NCBI GenBank assembly: GCA_001599975.1
Contig: BCIO01000004.1
Location: 1,511,885 to 1,575,884 of the forward strand
Source of the DNA: Cystobasidiopsis lactophilus
Taxonomy: Eukaryota > Basidiomycota > Agaricostilbomycetes > Agaricostilbales > Chionosphaeraceae
Reading direction: 5' to 3'
DNA: 64,000 bases
Below the pieces are notes generated by a model. The model was not told where the DNA came from, ran no database searches, and saw nothing but the letters and a program-made list of their open reading frames with translations. Numbering within the stretch: the first letter of the stretch is position 1; every line of letters starts with the position of its first letter. Shown one piece after another: positions 19,819 to 43,348 of this stretch. A program made the position numbers and the translations under genes.

Positions 19819-19869
19819 TTAATAATGTAGTTGGTCAGTAGGGGTCCCAGTGGACTGTCGGGAGGAGGA

Positions 19870-21730
19870 TCAAACACCGCCGGGGTCCCACAAAATGCTG
19901 AAGCAGACACACCTCGTTCCATTAAGCTGCAGCAACAAAGGAAAGATGAGCAAGCGCGGCGGGTTCCCGTGCGGAGAAGTCAGAGCGCACTTGAAGGATT
20001 CGTACGAAACGCCGTCGCCTGGACGATAGTCCGGCGCGTCTCTAGAAATGTCGGCCCATGCGCGGAAGAGCTTGCGCCAGTAGCAGTTGGTGCTAGCGGG
20101 CGACAGCCAATACCGCCAAAACCGGTAGCTGGTCTCGGCGATCTGCTTAGTGCGGGCGTCGTTGCGCAAAAGCGACTCCATGGTCTCGCTGAGCGTATTC
20201 CATTCCATGCCTGGGACCAACACCAAGTTTTGATCCGGGGAAGCTGCATCAGTATTGAAGAGATGGTGGAAGTGCTGGATGAACTCGAGGTCGTGCATGA
20301 CCGTGACTGATTTGCACTGGAGCAGGTATCTGCGAGCGCCTGATGTGAGCCATGAACATTTGGACAAACCGCGCAAGCCCACTTTAGCCGCCCGGAGTAG
20401 GCCCAGCCTTCGACGTGGCCCAAAAATTTGTACTGGCAATGTTGGGCGGGCGTGATGACTTTGCCCTGCTGGTTGTCCCACCTGATCTCCTCCACAGCTC
20501 CCCAGATCTTGTCTTTGGCCTTGTCAAGCAGCTTGCGACGGATGTCGACCATCAGAGCTCCTCGCCAGAAGAGCTTGGGGATCTTGTCCGACCAGGCTAG
20601 CTGCGCCTCGTAGGCTTGGCACTGGTCCTGCACTTCGACTGAGGGAGCTGGTCTGAGCTAAGTTCTGGCTTCGAAGGTCGCATCGGCTTACCGAACGAGT
20701 TCACGCCCGGCTGAAGATTGCCAGCCCGTCAGGCTCCATCAATTCAGCGAAAATTTGGAACGGGCATTACCTCTGCAAAAGGAACGGCACAATCAGTAAC
20801 GAGACCCCATACGTGGTTGAAGGATTAAACCCACCTGGCCATGAATTGAAGCCTTTGGAACAGCCACTCAGCTTGAACTCGGAAATCAAGGAGCAGAACG
20901 GCCCAAAAAGCGCACCATAATCTGTCAACGATATTCAACTTCTGACAAAATAGGAGAGGGGTGATGTCCAATGGTTCACCTGGCATGAGCCACAAACTTT
21001 GCTGGTCGGCTTTCCGGTCCAGCACCCAGAGGGGCGCTAATTGATTGATCAGTCAGGTGAGCTGGATACAAAGAGCACTCCGAAGCTCACTTTCACTCTC
21101 CCCATCGCCCGCGTCTGACGTGTGCAGCGTAAACTCGACGTCTGGTAGAGGTTCGACCGCGGTGATAAGAGCCTCGTAGATTGACGCCAGGCTTGCCTGG
21201 GTCCGCTTGCCCTGACCGCCACCGTATCGAGTCACGAACATCCTGTTGTTCTGAATGATGACCGTTGCGTGCCCCTTATCTGCAGCCTTCCGCTTGTCCT
21301 CGGCGGAAATGCGCCCTCTCTTGCGCCAAAACTCGGCCGCGCGGTCCACTTCCAAGTACAACCCTGGGAAGAAAGCGTCACACTGAGCGTCCGTCAAATG
21401 TCTGTCCATTAGGAATTCGACAGAGGCGTTGCGGCTGTTGGGAGAAGCGGGAGCCGCGCAGGCGTTGGCGAGAGAGCCGAACGAAGTCCACTGGGCGTCG
21501 CAGGCCACTTGCTTGAGCTGCTTCGCCTCCAGGAAGGTTGGACCAAGAGCTTTCGGGCGTGTGAGAGTGAAAAGCAAGATGCAAGGGACGAGAGTGTAGA
21601 TGAGGAAGGAGCGCAGGACCGGGTGCATGTTGGACAGACGGGACTTATCGTTGGGGTCGAGCAGGCCATAGCGGCCCCTTGGCCATTCGTTCGACTTCAT
21701 GCGCTCCAAGAAGGAGTTGATAGAAGCCAT
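19870..21730 (-). CDS. GT90 (CAP10-like) glycosyltransferase with micro-exons
   Basis: Eight exons, 21730-21091, 21036-20980, 20921-20916 (6 bases), 20852-20835 (18), 20772-20771 (2), 20710-20692 (19), 20638-20383 and 20329-19870, sum to 486 codons. A membrane anchor (SFLIYTLVPCILLFTL) near residue 30 gives a type II Golgi topology. Splicing rebuilds LWLMPDYGFNSWPEPGVNSF, then YEAQLAWSDKIPKLFWRGAL, YKFLGHVEGWAYSGRLKYLL and VPGMEWNTLSETMESLL, the CAP10/GT90 core. Cryptococcal Cap10/Cxt-type relatives transfer xylose to glycans; the donor here is unknown. The start is ATG at 21730, because the longer frame begins with a non-ATG codon. The 2-base exon is required to keep frame through the SWPEP motif. 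Confidence 0.85.
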
Positions 21731-36630: not shown

Positions 36631-38824
36631 TCACAATTCGTCGTGCCCCTCGTGCTCGTCCTCTTCGTCATCATCTCCTCCAAGGACAACTTGTCCAGTG
36701 CCGGCACTGGTAGCTGATTCGGGATCGGGCTTGACGCCGTTGGCCGAGGTCTCGCCGATGTAGTCGATCAAAGACTCCAAAGTGCGGTCGCCCTGGTAAT
36801 CGAGCCACTCGTCGGTGTTGGCCGGCCTGAACTTGATGGTGGGAAACCCTTGGACGCGCTGTGGCCCAAAAGTCAGCTGTGCCACACAACACGAACCATT
36901 GGGGGCATGACCTACAATGCCAGACGACGAGGGAACGTCGTTGTTGTGGGCGTCAAACTTGGCAATCAGGATCTTGTCCTACGCAAGGGCTGAGTCCGAG
37001 ACAAGGGCAGAGCTAGCAAAGAGCGGACCTTGGAACCAATGTAGCGCTCGCCCAAGGTCTCCCAGGTCGGCGCCAACTTCTTGCAGTGGCCACACCAGGG
37101 AGCGTAGACTGCCGGGCAAGCCGTGTGAGCAAAAGCTCGTGCCGGGTGGACTGTAGATAGAACACCCACACTCGATGAAGTAATCCTTGGACTTGTCCGC
37201 GGTGACCTTGTCAAACTCATCCTGCGCGTCGCTGTCAGCGCCGCGTCACAGAGTCGTGCGACTCTGGGGACTCACAGCAACCAAAGTGTAGACACCTTCA
37301 GACTGAGTGGCCGGGATGGGCTCGCTCTTGATGCTGGGCGTAACTTCGCCGTTGATGAACTTGGTGACAAAGTCGCCCACCGTCTTGGCGGAAAAGGTTT
37401 CGGTTTGGGGCAATGGGAACTTAAGCACTGTGCTCGTGGTCAGTATTTGACGCGATGTGCAGCAGAACAAGGAAAGCACGCACTCTCTTGCACGTTCTGG
37501 ATCGCGAACGAGGGCCACTTGGGCTCTTGGAGGTTCAAGCTCTTGGCATGGTCCGAGAACTTGGTGGCGTCGATCCAAACGAAGTTGATCTTGCCCTTGT
37601 GCTCGCGAGCGATGGGTTCGATAGCCTTGACGGTGGTCTCGCGGTTGGGGTCTTCCGATTCGATGAAGATGTAGCCGATGGGGATGCCGGCCTCCGCGTA
37701 GAACGCAAAGTTCTCCGGGGAGATCTCGTCGAGCAGAGGGGTGGCGTGCTCCTTGATAAAGTCGGACAGGGCGGCGGGCTCGAGGGCAGCAGCGGCCAGG
37801 TCGTTGCGGCCTTCGTCAAAGGTCTTGTACAGGACGACGGTAGGCTTGGACACGCCGGCGGCGGTGATGACCTCGGCGTCAGTGACCAGACCAAACAGGT
37901 AGTCATCGCGGTGCTCTTCGGCGAAGTCCTCGAAGACCTTCTTGTTGGCGATGTCTGCCTCATCGAGGTATGCGATGAGGACGACTTTGTCGGCCAACTT
38001 GAACTCGTCGTGGTCTGCGGCGGTGACTGCCGAAAGAGCAGGAAGCGCTTGTCTGGGTGTTCATCCATGTCAGCTAGACGGTCTCTGGAGTCGGCGGACA
38101 GAGCAAACCCACTTCTTCATGTAGCTGATGATGCCGTCGCTCTTGCGGGGGCCGCCGTATTCTGTGGCTTCACCATTGCGGAAGACCTTCAACGTCCTGT
38201 GGTGCCGGAGGCGCGCTTTAGCATCGGTGACAAAAGGCGGGCCCGGCCAAAACGCACGGGTAGCCTTGCACATTGTGATCCGCGCAAAGATCGCTGTCAG
38301 AACGTCTCAGAATGGACGAAAACATCACTGCAAGCCAGGAGGGCGCACCTCTCTGCCGTGCAGTCCACTTTGGCCAACTTAATGCTCGAGTTCTTGAGCG
38401 ACGTGGCAGCCTTTTCGTACTCTGGCGCCAGCGCCCTGCAGCCTGTCGCGTCAGGACCGACCCAGCATATGACAACTAGAGCAGGTTACGCACTTGCAAT
38501 GACCGCACCATGGCGCTACAGGGGCGGCATCAGCACGAATTGGGCGTGTCCTTTTTCAGGCCAACAAGACCCACCAAAGAATCTGAGGCGCCCGCTCTTT
38601 AGCGTAGGCTCTCTGTCGCTGCCAAGAAGCCACTCACTCTACTAAGATCAGCTTCTCCGACGGGACAATGGAGGTGAAGGTCGACTTGGTGAGGTCGAGC
38701 ACGTCCTGCGCGTTTTGGGGCCGCAAATCAGAGGGCGGGCTTCGGCCTGGGGCTCAGGGGCTCTTACGGAGGCCAGCACCGAGGCTGCTAGAAGGACTGT
38801 CGCGGCAAGGAATGGCCCTTTCAT
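36631..38824 (-). CDS. Protein disulfide isomerase with HDEL-type ER retention
   Basis: A signal peptide [19 protein letters not shown] opens the protein. Exons 38824-38768, 38705-38638, 38582-38575 (8 bases), 38515-38494 (22), 38435-38349 and 38293-38258 rebuild [20 protein letters not shown], the first catalytic thioredoxin domain, then [17 protein letters not shown]. The b/b' domains follow ([33 protein letters not shown]), then the second active site [26 protein letters not shown], an acidic tail and a C-terminal GHDEL. This is the a-b-b'-a' layout of PDI, which oxidises and rearranges disulfides in the ER lumen. The intron just ahead of each active site falls at the same place in both repeats. 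Confidence 0.93.
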
Positions 38825-38928
38825 GATGCAGCGCGTCCGCGAGGTTTGTGGAACAGGAGCAAGAGCTTCGCTGAGCTCGCTGATCCCTCGCCTTGCTTAG
38901 TAAACGTTTGCCACCGCCACGTCCGCTT

Positions 38929-41323
38929 CTAGGCACGGCCTGATACCAAAGGCCAGGACGCCGAACCGTAAGCCACCCCGTCCACGAAGAACTGAATCGA
39001 GGCTGAGCGTCCACTCTTGGCTGGGCGGTGGAGGGTATCAGCGAGGCTGTCCAGCAAGCTCTCAAGTCGCTCGGTGTAGGCGCCCTCTCGAACGGAAAGC
39101 GTGAGAGTGGCGAGCCTGGGCAGCCAGATAGTGTTGCCGGCGGCGCGCTCGATCTCCTTGACGATCGCCCAGTCCACGCCGCGGAGGTCGACAGTGACAA
39201 GTGTCCGGGGCAAGTACGCGGTGATCTGAAACCTGGGGCGAGCGCTGGGGTTCTTCTCCCTCTCATCGCGGTACTGGATTCGGCGTCAGAAAGCCCGGCG
39301 GTGGCTGGCAATTGGCAGATGCGAAGGCCTCACAAACTTGTCCAGGTTGGAAACTTCGTCCAACTTCAGCGAGGTCAGGTAAGGGCAGCGCTCCAGCCTA
39401 ATCCAGGTGTGTGAGCTCCTGGGAGGATCGGTTCCAATGTGAGCGCTTACAGCCTTTTGACGAGCTGTCGATAACCTTTGGCAAAGTGCTCCTTTCTTGG
39501 CCGCACTGGGCACTCACCAGCTCTGTCAAGTGGACGTAGTCGTTCCAGATGGACCTAAAATCAAATTAAGCATGGTATTGCGGCAAGTGAATAGCGAATA
39601 CCTACACCGACCAAAGCAGGCTGAAAGTGGTGGCTCTCGTGAGGAGACGCAGTTCTAGGCCAGAGCAAAGACGACGCACTGCAATCCCTTCAAGCTGTAG
39701 CCGAAGCCATCTTCCAAGACTAGAGCCAATAGACTTGTAAGCTGGCACAAAGCGATGCACAAGAAAACCCAACCTTTGAACAAGAAATCTTCGCGAGCGC
39801 CACGACCGTCCATCTCGAAGATGCGTATGCCAGACAAGCACCGACGTAAAGCAGCACTGGTGTCGTCCAGCCAGTAGCACTGCGTTTTGCTGTTCTCGTC
39901 AGCATCCCGAGCCCTTTGGGATTGGGCCACAAACTCTGTCGGCGTTGAAGCGAGTCAATTCGCGAAGGCGATCGGGCAGGCGGGGCTTTTCCAGCGTTCC
40001 TGACACTGAAAAATGGTACCGGCATGAAAATGGGAGGGAAGGGAAGGAACAGAGGTTGTGGCGACACGTACGGTAGACAAGCGAGACGGTGAACGTTCGG
40101 ACGCCTTGCGCGCGAGACAAAAAGTGACACAATGCGCGCTATTGCAAATGAGACGTTGAAAAGGACTCAGGAAGGGCAGAGTGAGTGGACGCACCAGGTC
40201 GATGCTGGTCAACGCGTGGCCCGCCTCGACGCCGGACGTCTCCGGCTGATGGACATGGCTCAGCTTTCGAGATAGGACCGAAAGAAGACACTCACAGAGC
40301 CATCAAGGATGAAGTGCTCGATCCTGAGACTGCTATAGTCTTGCCAGGCGGGAGGGGGAGGCGGCTGCCGCGGCATTTTCTCCATCTTGCGCTCGATGGG
40401 ACCTCTGCGATCGCGATGGGCGCGGCTCCACTCATTGTCCAGGTGTTTTCTGTCCAAGTCCCAGATTGGGAGGGCCACCTGCGCCTCCAACCAGCGAAAT
40501 GTAGCGGGGTCAATTGAGAGCGTGATGTGCTTGGCGCAGTGTCTGGCGAGGCCACGAAACAGCGACTCGTAGAGGACCGCATTCTCTGTAGCATCGTGAT
40601 CGAGTCGGGACGCAATGGTCAAATGCCTAAGCAGGCCCAAAGGGTTCCAAGTGCCGGCCTCGGTGGCAGCGCGGACGGTTTCAACGTAGGTGTCGAATTG
40701 GGAAAAGTGGGTGAGCTTGACGTTGGAGTATGATTGGCTGCAATTGCTTGTTCAGCGGCTGCGCTACTGGTCTTGGATATGAAGAATGGCAATCACTTGC
40801 GGACGTGGGTCAGAAAAACCCTGTGGCAGGCCAAGTCGGCAAACCTCCAAGGCTTGGTGGAGTTCTCAGCGACGTAAGTCACCTCCCCATCGGGGCCAAC
40901 GAGCTCCTTGTACTCTACGCCGAAAAATTCGTAAGCGCTATGCATGCGACAAGCAACGCCACCACAGAAAGCCTCAACTAATGGGAGCTTGTTTGTTGGA
41001 GAAGAAGGCGTCCTCGTCGTACTCCTCGGGCTTGGCAGTGCTTGACTGCTCGACGTCGGCTCCTGGCGCCTCGCTGGCGAAGCCACAGATGGCAGCGAGA
41101 ATCTCCACCTGTCAAACACGGAGTCCGTAAGCCTCTAGCGAATCGATGGTTGCCCAGTTGTGTGCCTGACCGGAAGAGTTTCTAGAATGGGCTTCTCCTG
41201 GGTCGCTTTCCAGTCGAATTTGCTTTGCAGGGTAGGGTGGAAATCATGGGGGTTCAGAATTGTCGCCTTGAGAATCGGGAGGAGCACCGGCTTCTTGCGA
41301 GCGACTGAGCTGTCGGGGTTCAT
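38929..41323 (-). CDS. F-box-like protein, multi-exon
   Basis: The start is MNPDSSVARKKPVLLP at 41323. A splice joins ETLP to VEILAAICGFASEAPGADVE, giving LPVEILAAICGF, which resembles the first helix of an F-box. Later exons include KPWRFADLACHRVFLTHVRK, GTWNPLGLLRHLTIASRLDH and VTVDLRGVDWAIVKEIERA, an LRR-like alternation of hydrophobic residues common in basidiomycete F-box families. The stop is at 38929. I cannot resolve all exons, and the F-box call is weak. If right, it would be a substrate adaptor of an SCF ubiquitin ligase. It is the first gene of a same-strand run that continues into the acyltransferase cluster. Confidence 0.5.
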
Positions 41324-41502
41324 CTGACTCTGAGGTAGCACAGCTAACACTGAAGTTCACAGAGGCCAAAGCTCAGAATCGAGTGAAAAAGAGTCGCTCG
41401 CGGATCCGGATCGGAGTGTGGATTCCTCGAAAGACGGCGAGATCGCGAGCTTGTGGCATGCAGCGTCGCAGCGTTCCAATAACAATGACATATTCAAATA
41501 AT

Positions 41503-43348
41503 CTACGCGTGCTGCGGTGGAGGCGAGAGGAAAGGCACGGCCTCGCCCATCTCCAAGGCTCTATCAGGCCCCTCCCTCTTGCGGGCCAAACTCGTGAGCG
41601 AGCCCAATGCGGACTTCGCAACGAATACTACAGTCTCGGAGGGCGTCCGGTCGGCCTCGATCAACTTGATGAAAGAATGGCCAAATTGAACTGATGGACG
41701 GTCGATGTACTTTTCGAACAAGTGCGACAGCCACAGAATGAGGGCGAAGGTTGGCAAAAAGGCATATAGCCAGACGGCGCGCGTCCAGACTCCAGGCGAA
41801 GGTGGGTCGGTGGCGCTGGCTGGGCCGACTGCCAGAGTGATGATCCAGGTGCCGAGGGACGCAACTTTTGCACGGCACATCGGCACTGTCACGAGCAACA
41901 AGTTCTGATGACGTGTACATACATAAATAACCGTGAACAAGGTAGTAGGCGAAGCTGGTCCGGCCCAAGAAGCGCAAAGGCGCCGAACCGAACAACTTTT
42001 GGCCTGTTGGCGAATTTTGCAAGAAAATAATGATAGCCATGGCGCCAACGCAGCGGATGGAGGCATTCTCGATGCCTAGGTGGCCGAAGAGCAGTCGAAG
42101 CCAGAAGGCCGGCGGCTCCAGGGCGCAGGCTTCGTCGTTGTAGGAGGTCCAAACGGCAATGCCGACCGCCGCCACAGCGGAGAGCAGCAGGGCTCGGGCC
42201 ACTCTGGCTGGTCCTGCGATGAGCAACCGCGAATCCGTCTGGCGGCCGCTGCCGAACAGGAAGTCGTACGCCCCATTGTAGCGGAGATGGGTGAGGAAGA
42301 CGCCCGCTGGGAAGTGGCTGTACATGTCGTAATCCCGCTGGAGAAACCAATGAATGATTAAAAGGAGGGCAATGCCGCCAAATACGGGGTATCGGGGCGT
42401 GAAGGTGCAGAGGATGAATACAATATAGCTTCTGTTTCTTTTAGAGTCAGAATCGGCGGGGCGCCGCCAGAGAAAACAAGGACTCGCCCAATAAATTCAA
42501 TGTGTATAGTCCAAAGAAGGGCGTAGTCCGTGTTCAAGTTGTACGGCAACTGGAGCGTATCGCGGAAAGCCTTGAGTAAGGTCGTCTTGCTAAAGTTCCG
42601 GCATAGAGCATGCTCGGCCCAGTTTTCCCAGCCAATTGGAGCAATATGAGAGTCGTAACGAGCCAATGTGGCCGAGGAAATTGGCGTCCAGCCAATGACG
42701 ACCAAAATCGATAGCATGGCCAGGATGGGCAGCGCTAGGCGGATGCAGCGGCGAACAACGGCTGAGCGGAGTCGACTCAGGGCATCTGGGGCATTGGCAT
42801 GGCGGTAGAAGCCTGAACACGCCGTTTGGCATTAGGCACGTGGAGGGCCCCTTGTTGAGAATCCGCACGTACTATCAGAGAGGACTACGCCGCTCAACAC
42901 GAAGAAGATGGAGACCATGCTGAGTAGGCCGCTTGGTAAACAAGGAGATCAAGAGAGTGACAACGACGAGCACTCACTGCGACCCGTTGAAGAACATGGT
43001 CGAGTACCAACGACAAGCCGCCGACGCCTCCCCCAGCGGTTTACCCATATAAAACTGGGCTGGTCGTGAGTATCATACAAGATTATTTTCATGTGTGCGC
43101 AGGCTTACATAGACATAGACGTGCCAAACCGACACGCAGACGCAAGCCACCCCTCGGAGCCCATCGAGGTAGGCCAGCTTCTGCTCGCCCGCTGGTGCCA
43201 TTGAAGACTTTCGAGAGCTGAGATGAGGACTGCCCACGAGGACCTCATCCATGCCCGCCTTGCTTTGCGCTGAATTGCGACGGAAGATGGGCTCGCTACT
43301 GCCGCCAGCAATGACCGGGCTCCCACTGGCGAATACTGGCAGATTCAT
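41503..43348 (-). CDS. Acyltransferase family 3 membrane protein
   Basis: ATG at 43348 starts a cytosolic tail with Ser-rich sequence, then QKLAYLDGLRGVACVCVSVW, the hallmark first helix of AT3 (OafA/Cas1-type) enzymes. VSIFFVLSGVVLS follows in a later exon, with further membrane segments (FDFLFGSGRQTDSRLLIAGP region, LLLSAVAAVGIAVWTSY, RFLGRTSFAYYLVHGYLCMY) and a typical end FEKYIDRPSVQFGHSF. The family moves acyl, usually acetyl, groups across membranes onto glycans or sterols. Two SGNH/PC-esterase genes follow upstream on the same strand, a pairing that elsewhere carries out glycan O-acetylation. Internal splice sites are only partly resolved. Paralogues with other acceptors are possible. 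Confidence 0.82.

Follow-up and report, generated by a model that had tools for sequence, protein, structure and literature searches.

Micro-exon genes of schistosomes are made up of many short exons. Exons of extremely small size have also been described in fungi and plants. The genome of Cryptococcus neoformans is intron-rich, with a median intron of 56 nt, and RNA-seq revealed exons down to 1 bp (PMC3990503). The CYP621A gene of Fusarium has a single micro-exon of one base in a conserved enzyme motif, flanked by short introns. This exon is found in transcripts and in 20 orthologues, its skipping breaks the reading frame, and an intronless relative marks the expected length (PMC12940212). 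The single-nucleotide exon of Arabidopsis APC11, which was shown experimentally, is constitutive and keeps the frame, and intron definition with successive removal of the two introns was proposed for it (PMC4674806). The P450 genes of Phanerochaete, a multigene enzyme family, have micro-exons of 2-10 codons and introns of 45-55 bp, the shortest exon given there being 6 bp (PMC1184071). In animals, exon definition across micro-exons is held to be sterically infeasible, and recognition across the intron has been proposed instead (PMC8378409). Stwintrons are adjoining fungal introns that are removed in consecutive steps, where one intron splits a splice signal of another. The only chain of micro-exons found in the open-licence literature was in human RPS24, with three microexons, which is no proof that others are absent.

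The gene described here lies in the window, the whole 64,000-base stretch of Cystobasidiopsis lactophilus DNA that was analysed. Judging from sequence, it very probably encodes a glycosyltransferase of family GT90 (PF05686) with predicted constitutive micro-exons, one of them 2 bases long. The sequence-only reading that drew attention to the gene held that a 2-base exon comes close to the smallest that a spliceosome is known to define. Since 1-base exons have been published in Cryptococcus neoformans, Fusarium CYP621A, and Arabidopsis APC11, the 2-base exon instead belongs to a known kind, and tiny exons as such are not new.

Materials and Methods

A gene model was self-trained without homology on both strands of 264 kb, made up of the window plus a 200-kb part of contig C2. 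Training yielded 67 genes and 474 introns, each flanked by exons of 25 bases or more, and the median intron was 59 bases. The model has no minimum exon length and an intron length range of 38-160. The training data include the GT90 gene itself, which supplied 2 of the 474 introns. In the path-enumeration and 1,000-shuffle tests the GT90 introns were excluded from the site matrices, while the codon and length tables still contained the gene. An internal coding exon of at most 27 bases between spliceosomal introns was counted as a micro-exon.

The enumeration of splicing paths allowed GT or GC donors and up to seven introns, each 45-345 bases long, and very weak sites were dropped. The combined score added splice-site and codon scores to a spliced alignment with the GT90 paralogue on contig C2. 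For the shuffle tests, dinucleotide shuffles were made of the 341-base stretch that holds the micro-exons, keeping its first 6 and last 20 bases. The model stopped early at the 3' end of the paralogue, and its last introns were set by hand, giving 7 introns and 406 residues. The exon that carries the motif in the paralogue is the same in the automatic and hand-edited models.

Results

The predicted protein belongs to the GT90 family. The full spliced protein scores 110.7 bits against PF05686, where the curated cut-off is 24. The match begins at residue 125 of the predicted protein and covers profile positions 10-331 of 396. The protein is also related to GT90 enzymes of solved structure, namely Rumi (4e-09) and POGLUT1 (4.1e-06). 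The glycosyltransferase activity is putative. A PF05686 search of the genome (22.1 Mb in 8 contigs, with the window in contig C4) gave five stretches in three places, three of them in the window gene and the others on contigs C5 and C2. Elsewhere in the window, at 36631-43201 on the minus strand, the model predicts one gene with 31 introns that resembles several genes run together. Its end has two APWCGHC stretches, typical of protein disulfide isomerase.

The homology-free model selects the micro-exon path exactly as first read from the sequence and adds two introns close to the 3' end (Table 1). The same path is returned when zero-length exons are forbidden. All nine introns of the model are GT-AG, and those already in the sequence-only reading were found by direct inspection where it had placed them, as were the exons. 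That reading counted five introns of about 53-62 bases. Five introns (2 to 6) do touch the motif, all of them close to the genome median of 59 bases, and six lie between exons 1 and 7, with lengths of 54, 58, 63, 62, 60, and 53 bases. Its count of eight exons and 486 codons equals 485 residues plus the stop if the last two introns are left out. This 3' end is probably wrong, as the model favours two additional introns there, with a 14-base exon between them, and inclusion of intron 8 restores an F-x-L-x-E-R end like that of the C2 paralogue. The predicted protein then has 456 residues and 10 exons, of which those of 6, 18, 2, 19, and 14 bases fall within the micro-exon size.

Table 1. Predicted exons and introns of the GT90 gene (window positions) and micro-exons in other genes of the genome. 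Percentiles are relative to 472 reference introns.
Feature	Length (bases)	Position	Strand	Basis and remarks
GT90 gene		21730-19835	minus	homology-free gene model and PF05686 match
Exon 1	640	21091..21730	minus	gene model; from ATG
Intron 1	54	21037..21090	minus	sequence and gene model; acceptor weak, 1.9th percentile
Exon 2	57	20980..21036	minus	sequence and gene model
Intron 2	58	20922..20979	minus	sequence and gene model
Exon 3 (ATTATG)	6	20916..20921	minus	sequence, gene model, Pfam variants, path enumeration
Intron 3	63	20853..20915	minus	sequence and gene model; stop-free in frame
Exon 4	18	20835..20852	minus	sequence, gene model, Pfam variants, path enumeration
Intron 4	62	20773..20834	minus	sequence and gene model; donor 79th, acceptor 72nd percentile
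Exon 5 (AG)	2	20771..20772	minus	sequence, gene model, Pfam variants, path enumeration
Intron 5	60	20711..20770	minus	sequence and gene model; donor 3.8th, acceptor 8.1th percentile
Exon 6	19	20692..20710	minus	sequence, gene model, Pfam variants, path enumeration; paralogue length fits
Intron 6	53	20639..20691	minus	sequence and gene model
Exon 7	256	20383..20638	minus	gene model and Pfam
Intron 7	53	20330..20382	minus	gene model
Exon 8	339	19991..20329	minus	gene model and Pfam
Intron 8	64	19927..19990	minus	gene model, 2.4 bits gain; absent from the sequence-only reading
Exon 9	14	19913..19926	minus	gene model
Intron 9	58	19855..19912	minus	gene model, 6.3 bits gain
Exon 10	20	19835..19854	minus	gene model; including stop
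Rab11-like gene, P-loop region	exons of 30, 9, 13, 22, 5	L028:1515-1848 = contig C2:1131515-1131848	minus	
Pirin-like gene, exon	6	L020:700-705	minus	inside EVQMTSTGTG, gap-free against YhhW
Aldo-keto reductase-like gene, exon	10	L020:5293-5302	plus	LIHMPVS, gap-free against yeast-type xylose/aldose reductases

Exons 3 to 6 rebuild a conserved GT90 motif, and the AG exon is needed for it. They join in frame to give PDYGFNSWPEPGVNSF, the translation across the joined exons is LWLMPDYGFNSWPEPGVNSFVEVQDQ, and the predicted spliced transcript across the motif is CCAGATTATGGCTTCAATTCATGGCCAGAGCCGGGCGTGAACTCG. The Glu codon of SWPEP (GAG) consists of the last G of exon 4 and the AG exon. When AG is omitted the frame shifts, the protein ends at 284 residues, and the Pfam score falls to 24.3 bits. 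The full path outscores each of the six altered variants, the others being exon 3 skipped (99.0 bits), exons 5 and 6 skipped (98.1), intron 3 retained (96.4), exon 4 skipped (92.7), and all four micro-exons skipped (91.8). The SWPEP-type motif from four tiny exons and the need for AG, as first proposed, are supported by Pfam, the gene model, the path ranking, and the shuffles.

Comparison with the C2 paralogue supports the length and position of the motif. The paralogue carries this stretch in one 340-base exon, where it reads VDFGFWSWPEARTYNYF. Of the 397 columns aligned between the two proteins, 152 are identical, and no gap occurs from S227 through the motif and beyond. Within the motif, 7 of 16 residues match, namely D, G, F, S, W, P, and E. 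The exon 6 residues PGVNSF have no identities and agree with the paralogue in length only. The alignment with Drosophila Rumi starts at the G of the motif and then continues without a gap. The five motif introns all lie at positions where the paralogue has no intron. Pattern searches for relatives gave 37 matches in contigs of other genomes and 31 in viral contigs, none of which was confirmed. The paralogue (L007, minus strand, gene start 3739) has a 22-base exon of its own (RLKYLLN) and no intron in the SWPE motif.

The micro-exon path ranks first among 6,280 in-frame paths. Its combined score is 60.5, compared to 52.2 for the next path and 44.5 for the best path without AG. It is also first on homology alone (105 against 103). 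In the shuffle test the real stretch scored 52.5 bits, and none of 1,000 shuffles reached this value (mean 20.2, s.d. 2.4, maximum 31.9). Homology-only shuffles are a weaker test. None of 300 equalled or exceeded the real stretch with free introns, and one of 300 did at an intron cost of 4; in this test some other path scored 94 against 89 for the micro-exon path.

Splice-site quality is uneven along the path. One weak point is the intron after AG, intron 5, which has poor sites (Table 1). Without homology the best path lacking AG is 9.3 bits worse. Several branch-like words are enriched in 426 reference introns relative to one shuffle of each: GCTGA (87 against 19), CTGAC (64 against 21), GCTCA (62 against 18), and CTGAT (52 against 18). 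By eye, introns 1, 3, 4, 5, and 6 carry at least one of these words, with GCTGA and CTGAC in intron 5, while intron 2 has only TTGAA and TTGAC.

A second predicted chain of micro-exons occurs in the same genome. Among internal exons of at most 27 bases in the 264 kb, the model gives a single run of four, that of the GT90 gene, and a single run of three. The latter is in a Rab11-like gene and becomes a run of four (9, 13, 22, and 5 bases) when the 5' end is read against Rab11, the 5' edge of the 9-base exon being placed by eye. Four micro-exons in a row are therefore less unusual than was first suggested. As a positive control, 43 residues across these four exons, from LFK through RSI, are identical to Rab11A. 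The introns involved are 59-69 bases long, and the acceptors of three of them rank between the 1st and the 6th percentile. Because these homology-backed introns also have weak acceptors, weak sites are not a strong argument against intron 5.

Many of the smallest predicted exons must be doubtful. With zero-length exons forbidden, the model predicts 542 internal exons; 31 of these are at most 12 bases long and 9 at most 3 bases. About 15 of the 31 gain no more than 3.9 bits over the best alternative, which is the reason for doubt. Ranked by gain among the 31, AG is 3rd and ATTATG is 27th. Homology supported the micro-exons in all three genes compared with PDB, which were hand-picked as recognisable out of seven inspected.

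Discussion

Regulated recursive splicing at the AG exon is an improbable explanation of this locus. In that case the sequence AG/AG/GT would be a recursive-splicing point, where use of the first AG leads to the enzyme, and use of the second AG (a zero-length exon) or skipping leads to a frame-shifted mRNA for decay. The tandem AGAG right before GTAATG, the weak sites of intron 5, and the end of the AG-less product at 284 residues are consistent with this. However, nothing points to regulation, and weak sites occur in the Rab11 introns too. A zero-length recursive splice site was rejected as a class, as the choice of GAG/GTAATG would lose AG and break the frame. Two further classes were also rejected. 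The locus differs from a stwintron [D1,2] in that intron 4 is followed by AGGTAATG, where the donor GTAATG is whole, and from introner-like introns in that the only match of the 341-base stretch in the genome is to itself, in a search that skips very common words.

There is little chance that intron 3 is coding. Exons 3 and 4 would then form one 87-base exon, inserting 21 residues between PDYG and GFNSW; the 2-base exon would stay and the 6-base exon would disappear. The 63 bases of intron 3 are open in frame and contain no stop, and their retention keeps the frame. The homology-free score of this path is lower by only 0.7 bits, which leaves the 6-base exon almost optional in the model. Homology argues for removal of the intron, since the paralogue has no insert at that place, the Pfam score drops from 110.7 to 96.4 bits, and the combined score is 44.8 against 60.5. 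In addition, intron 3 has a donor at the 80th percentile.

It is very improbable that the main mRNA has one large intron (20979-20639, minus strand) or other skips, with the four micro-exons present by chance and 15 residues lost. The four exons sum to 45 bases, so joint skipping keeps the frame, and the splice sites at the outer ends could be used. At 341 bases the intron would exceed the model range of 38-160 and be much longer than the median of 59, and the paralogue retains the 15 residues. The Pfam score is 91.8 bits compared to 110.7, and this path was open to all of the shuffles, yet every one scored below the real stretch. A decaying gene whose introns splice poorly is scarcely credible, for several splice sites are weak but all nine introns are GT-AG, and the 456-codon open frame matches GT90 over profile positions 10-331 of 396.

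The micro-exons of the GT90 gene are probably spliced by ordinary intron definition, one short intron at a time. Each intron of 53-63 bases would be recognized alone by its own 5' site, branch site, and 3' site, and exon length would hardly matter because each short intron is defined by itself. There would be too little room at AG for both neighbouring introns to be handled at once, so introns 4 and 5 would be removed one after the other. We infer that intron 4 leaves first, its donor and acceptor both being above the 70th percentile. The CAG of intron 4, the first AG to follow a branch-like CTGAT (in ACTGAT), may be preferred over the GAG two bases on, a choice that would set the exon length at 2 bases. 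Removal of intron 4 would leave CCAGAG/GTAATG, which would give intron 5 an ordinary, though weak, donor. The downstream GAG may be a built-in error route, by which AG is dropped and the protein is truncated. The arrangement most likely has no function beyond building the enzyme.

A broader reading is speculative and, in our view, unlikely. It proposes that chains of near-zero-length exons in motifs are a habit of the whole lineage, and that the two-base acceptor choice at AG/AG/GT sets the amount of enzyme. If it is true, such chains and the stepwise AG/AG/GT site would be a natural test bed for the minimal spliceosomal exon and the order in which crowded introns are removed. If transcripts bear out the GT90 chain, it would offer, together with the Rab11-like chain, a compact system for asking whether there is a set order to the removal of crowded short introns and to what density introns can be gained within conserved motifs. 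Annotation programs that impose a minimum exon length would then miss the GT90 motif.

The locus shares features with several known systems. As in Fusarium CYP621A, an ultra-small exon lies in a conserved enzyme motif of a fungus between short introns, its skipping breaks the frame, and a relative without introns there marks the length. The Fusarium exon is single, one base long, and documented in transcripts and orthologues, whereas the GT90 exon has 2 bases, belongs to a run of four, and is predicted. Cryptococcus neoformans has a similar median intron (59 bases here); its exons come from RNA-seq, and the section on introns describes no run of micro-exons. Arabidopsis APC11 is alike in its constitutive, frame-keeping exon and the proposed mechanism, and unlike in being a plant gene with a single, experimentally shown micro-exon. 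The Phanerochaete P450 genes are comparable in intron length, micro-exon size, and membership of a multigene enzyme family, and their shortest exon is longer than AG. As with stwintrons, adjoining introns would be removed in consecutive steps, but here intron 5 has an unbroken donor, and the introns are separated by two coding bases. The Rab11-like gene likewise has four micro-exons in a row in a conserved motif; its smallest exon has 5 bases, and its homology is much stronger. What stands out in the GT90 gene is density, with five introns within 45 coding bases. If transcripts agree, those 45 bases are in four pieces across the five introns, and one of the pieces is 2 bases long.
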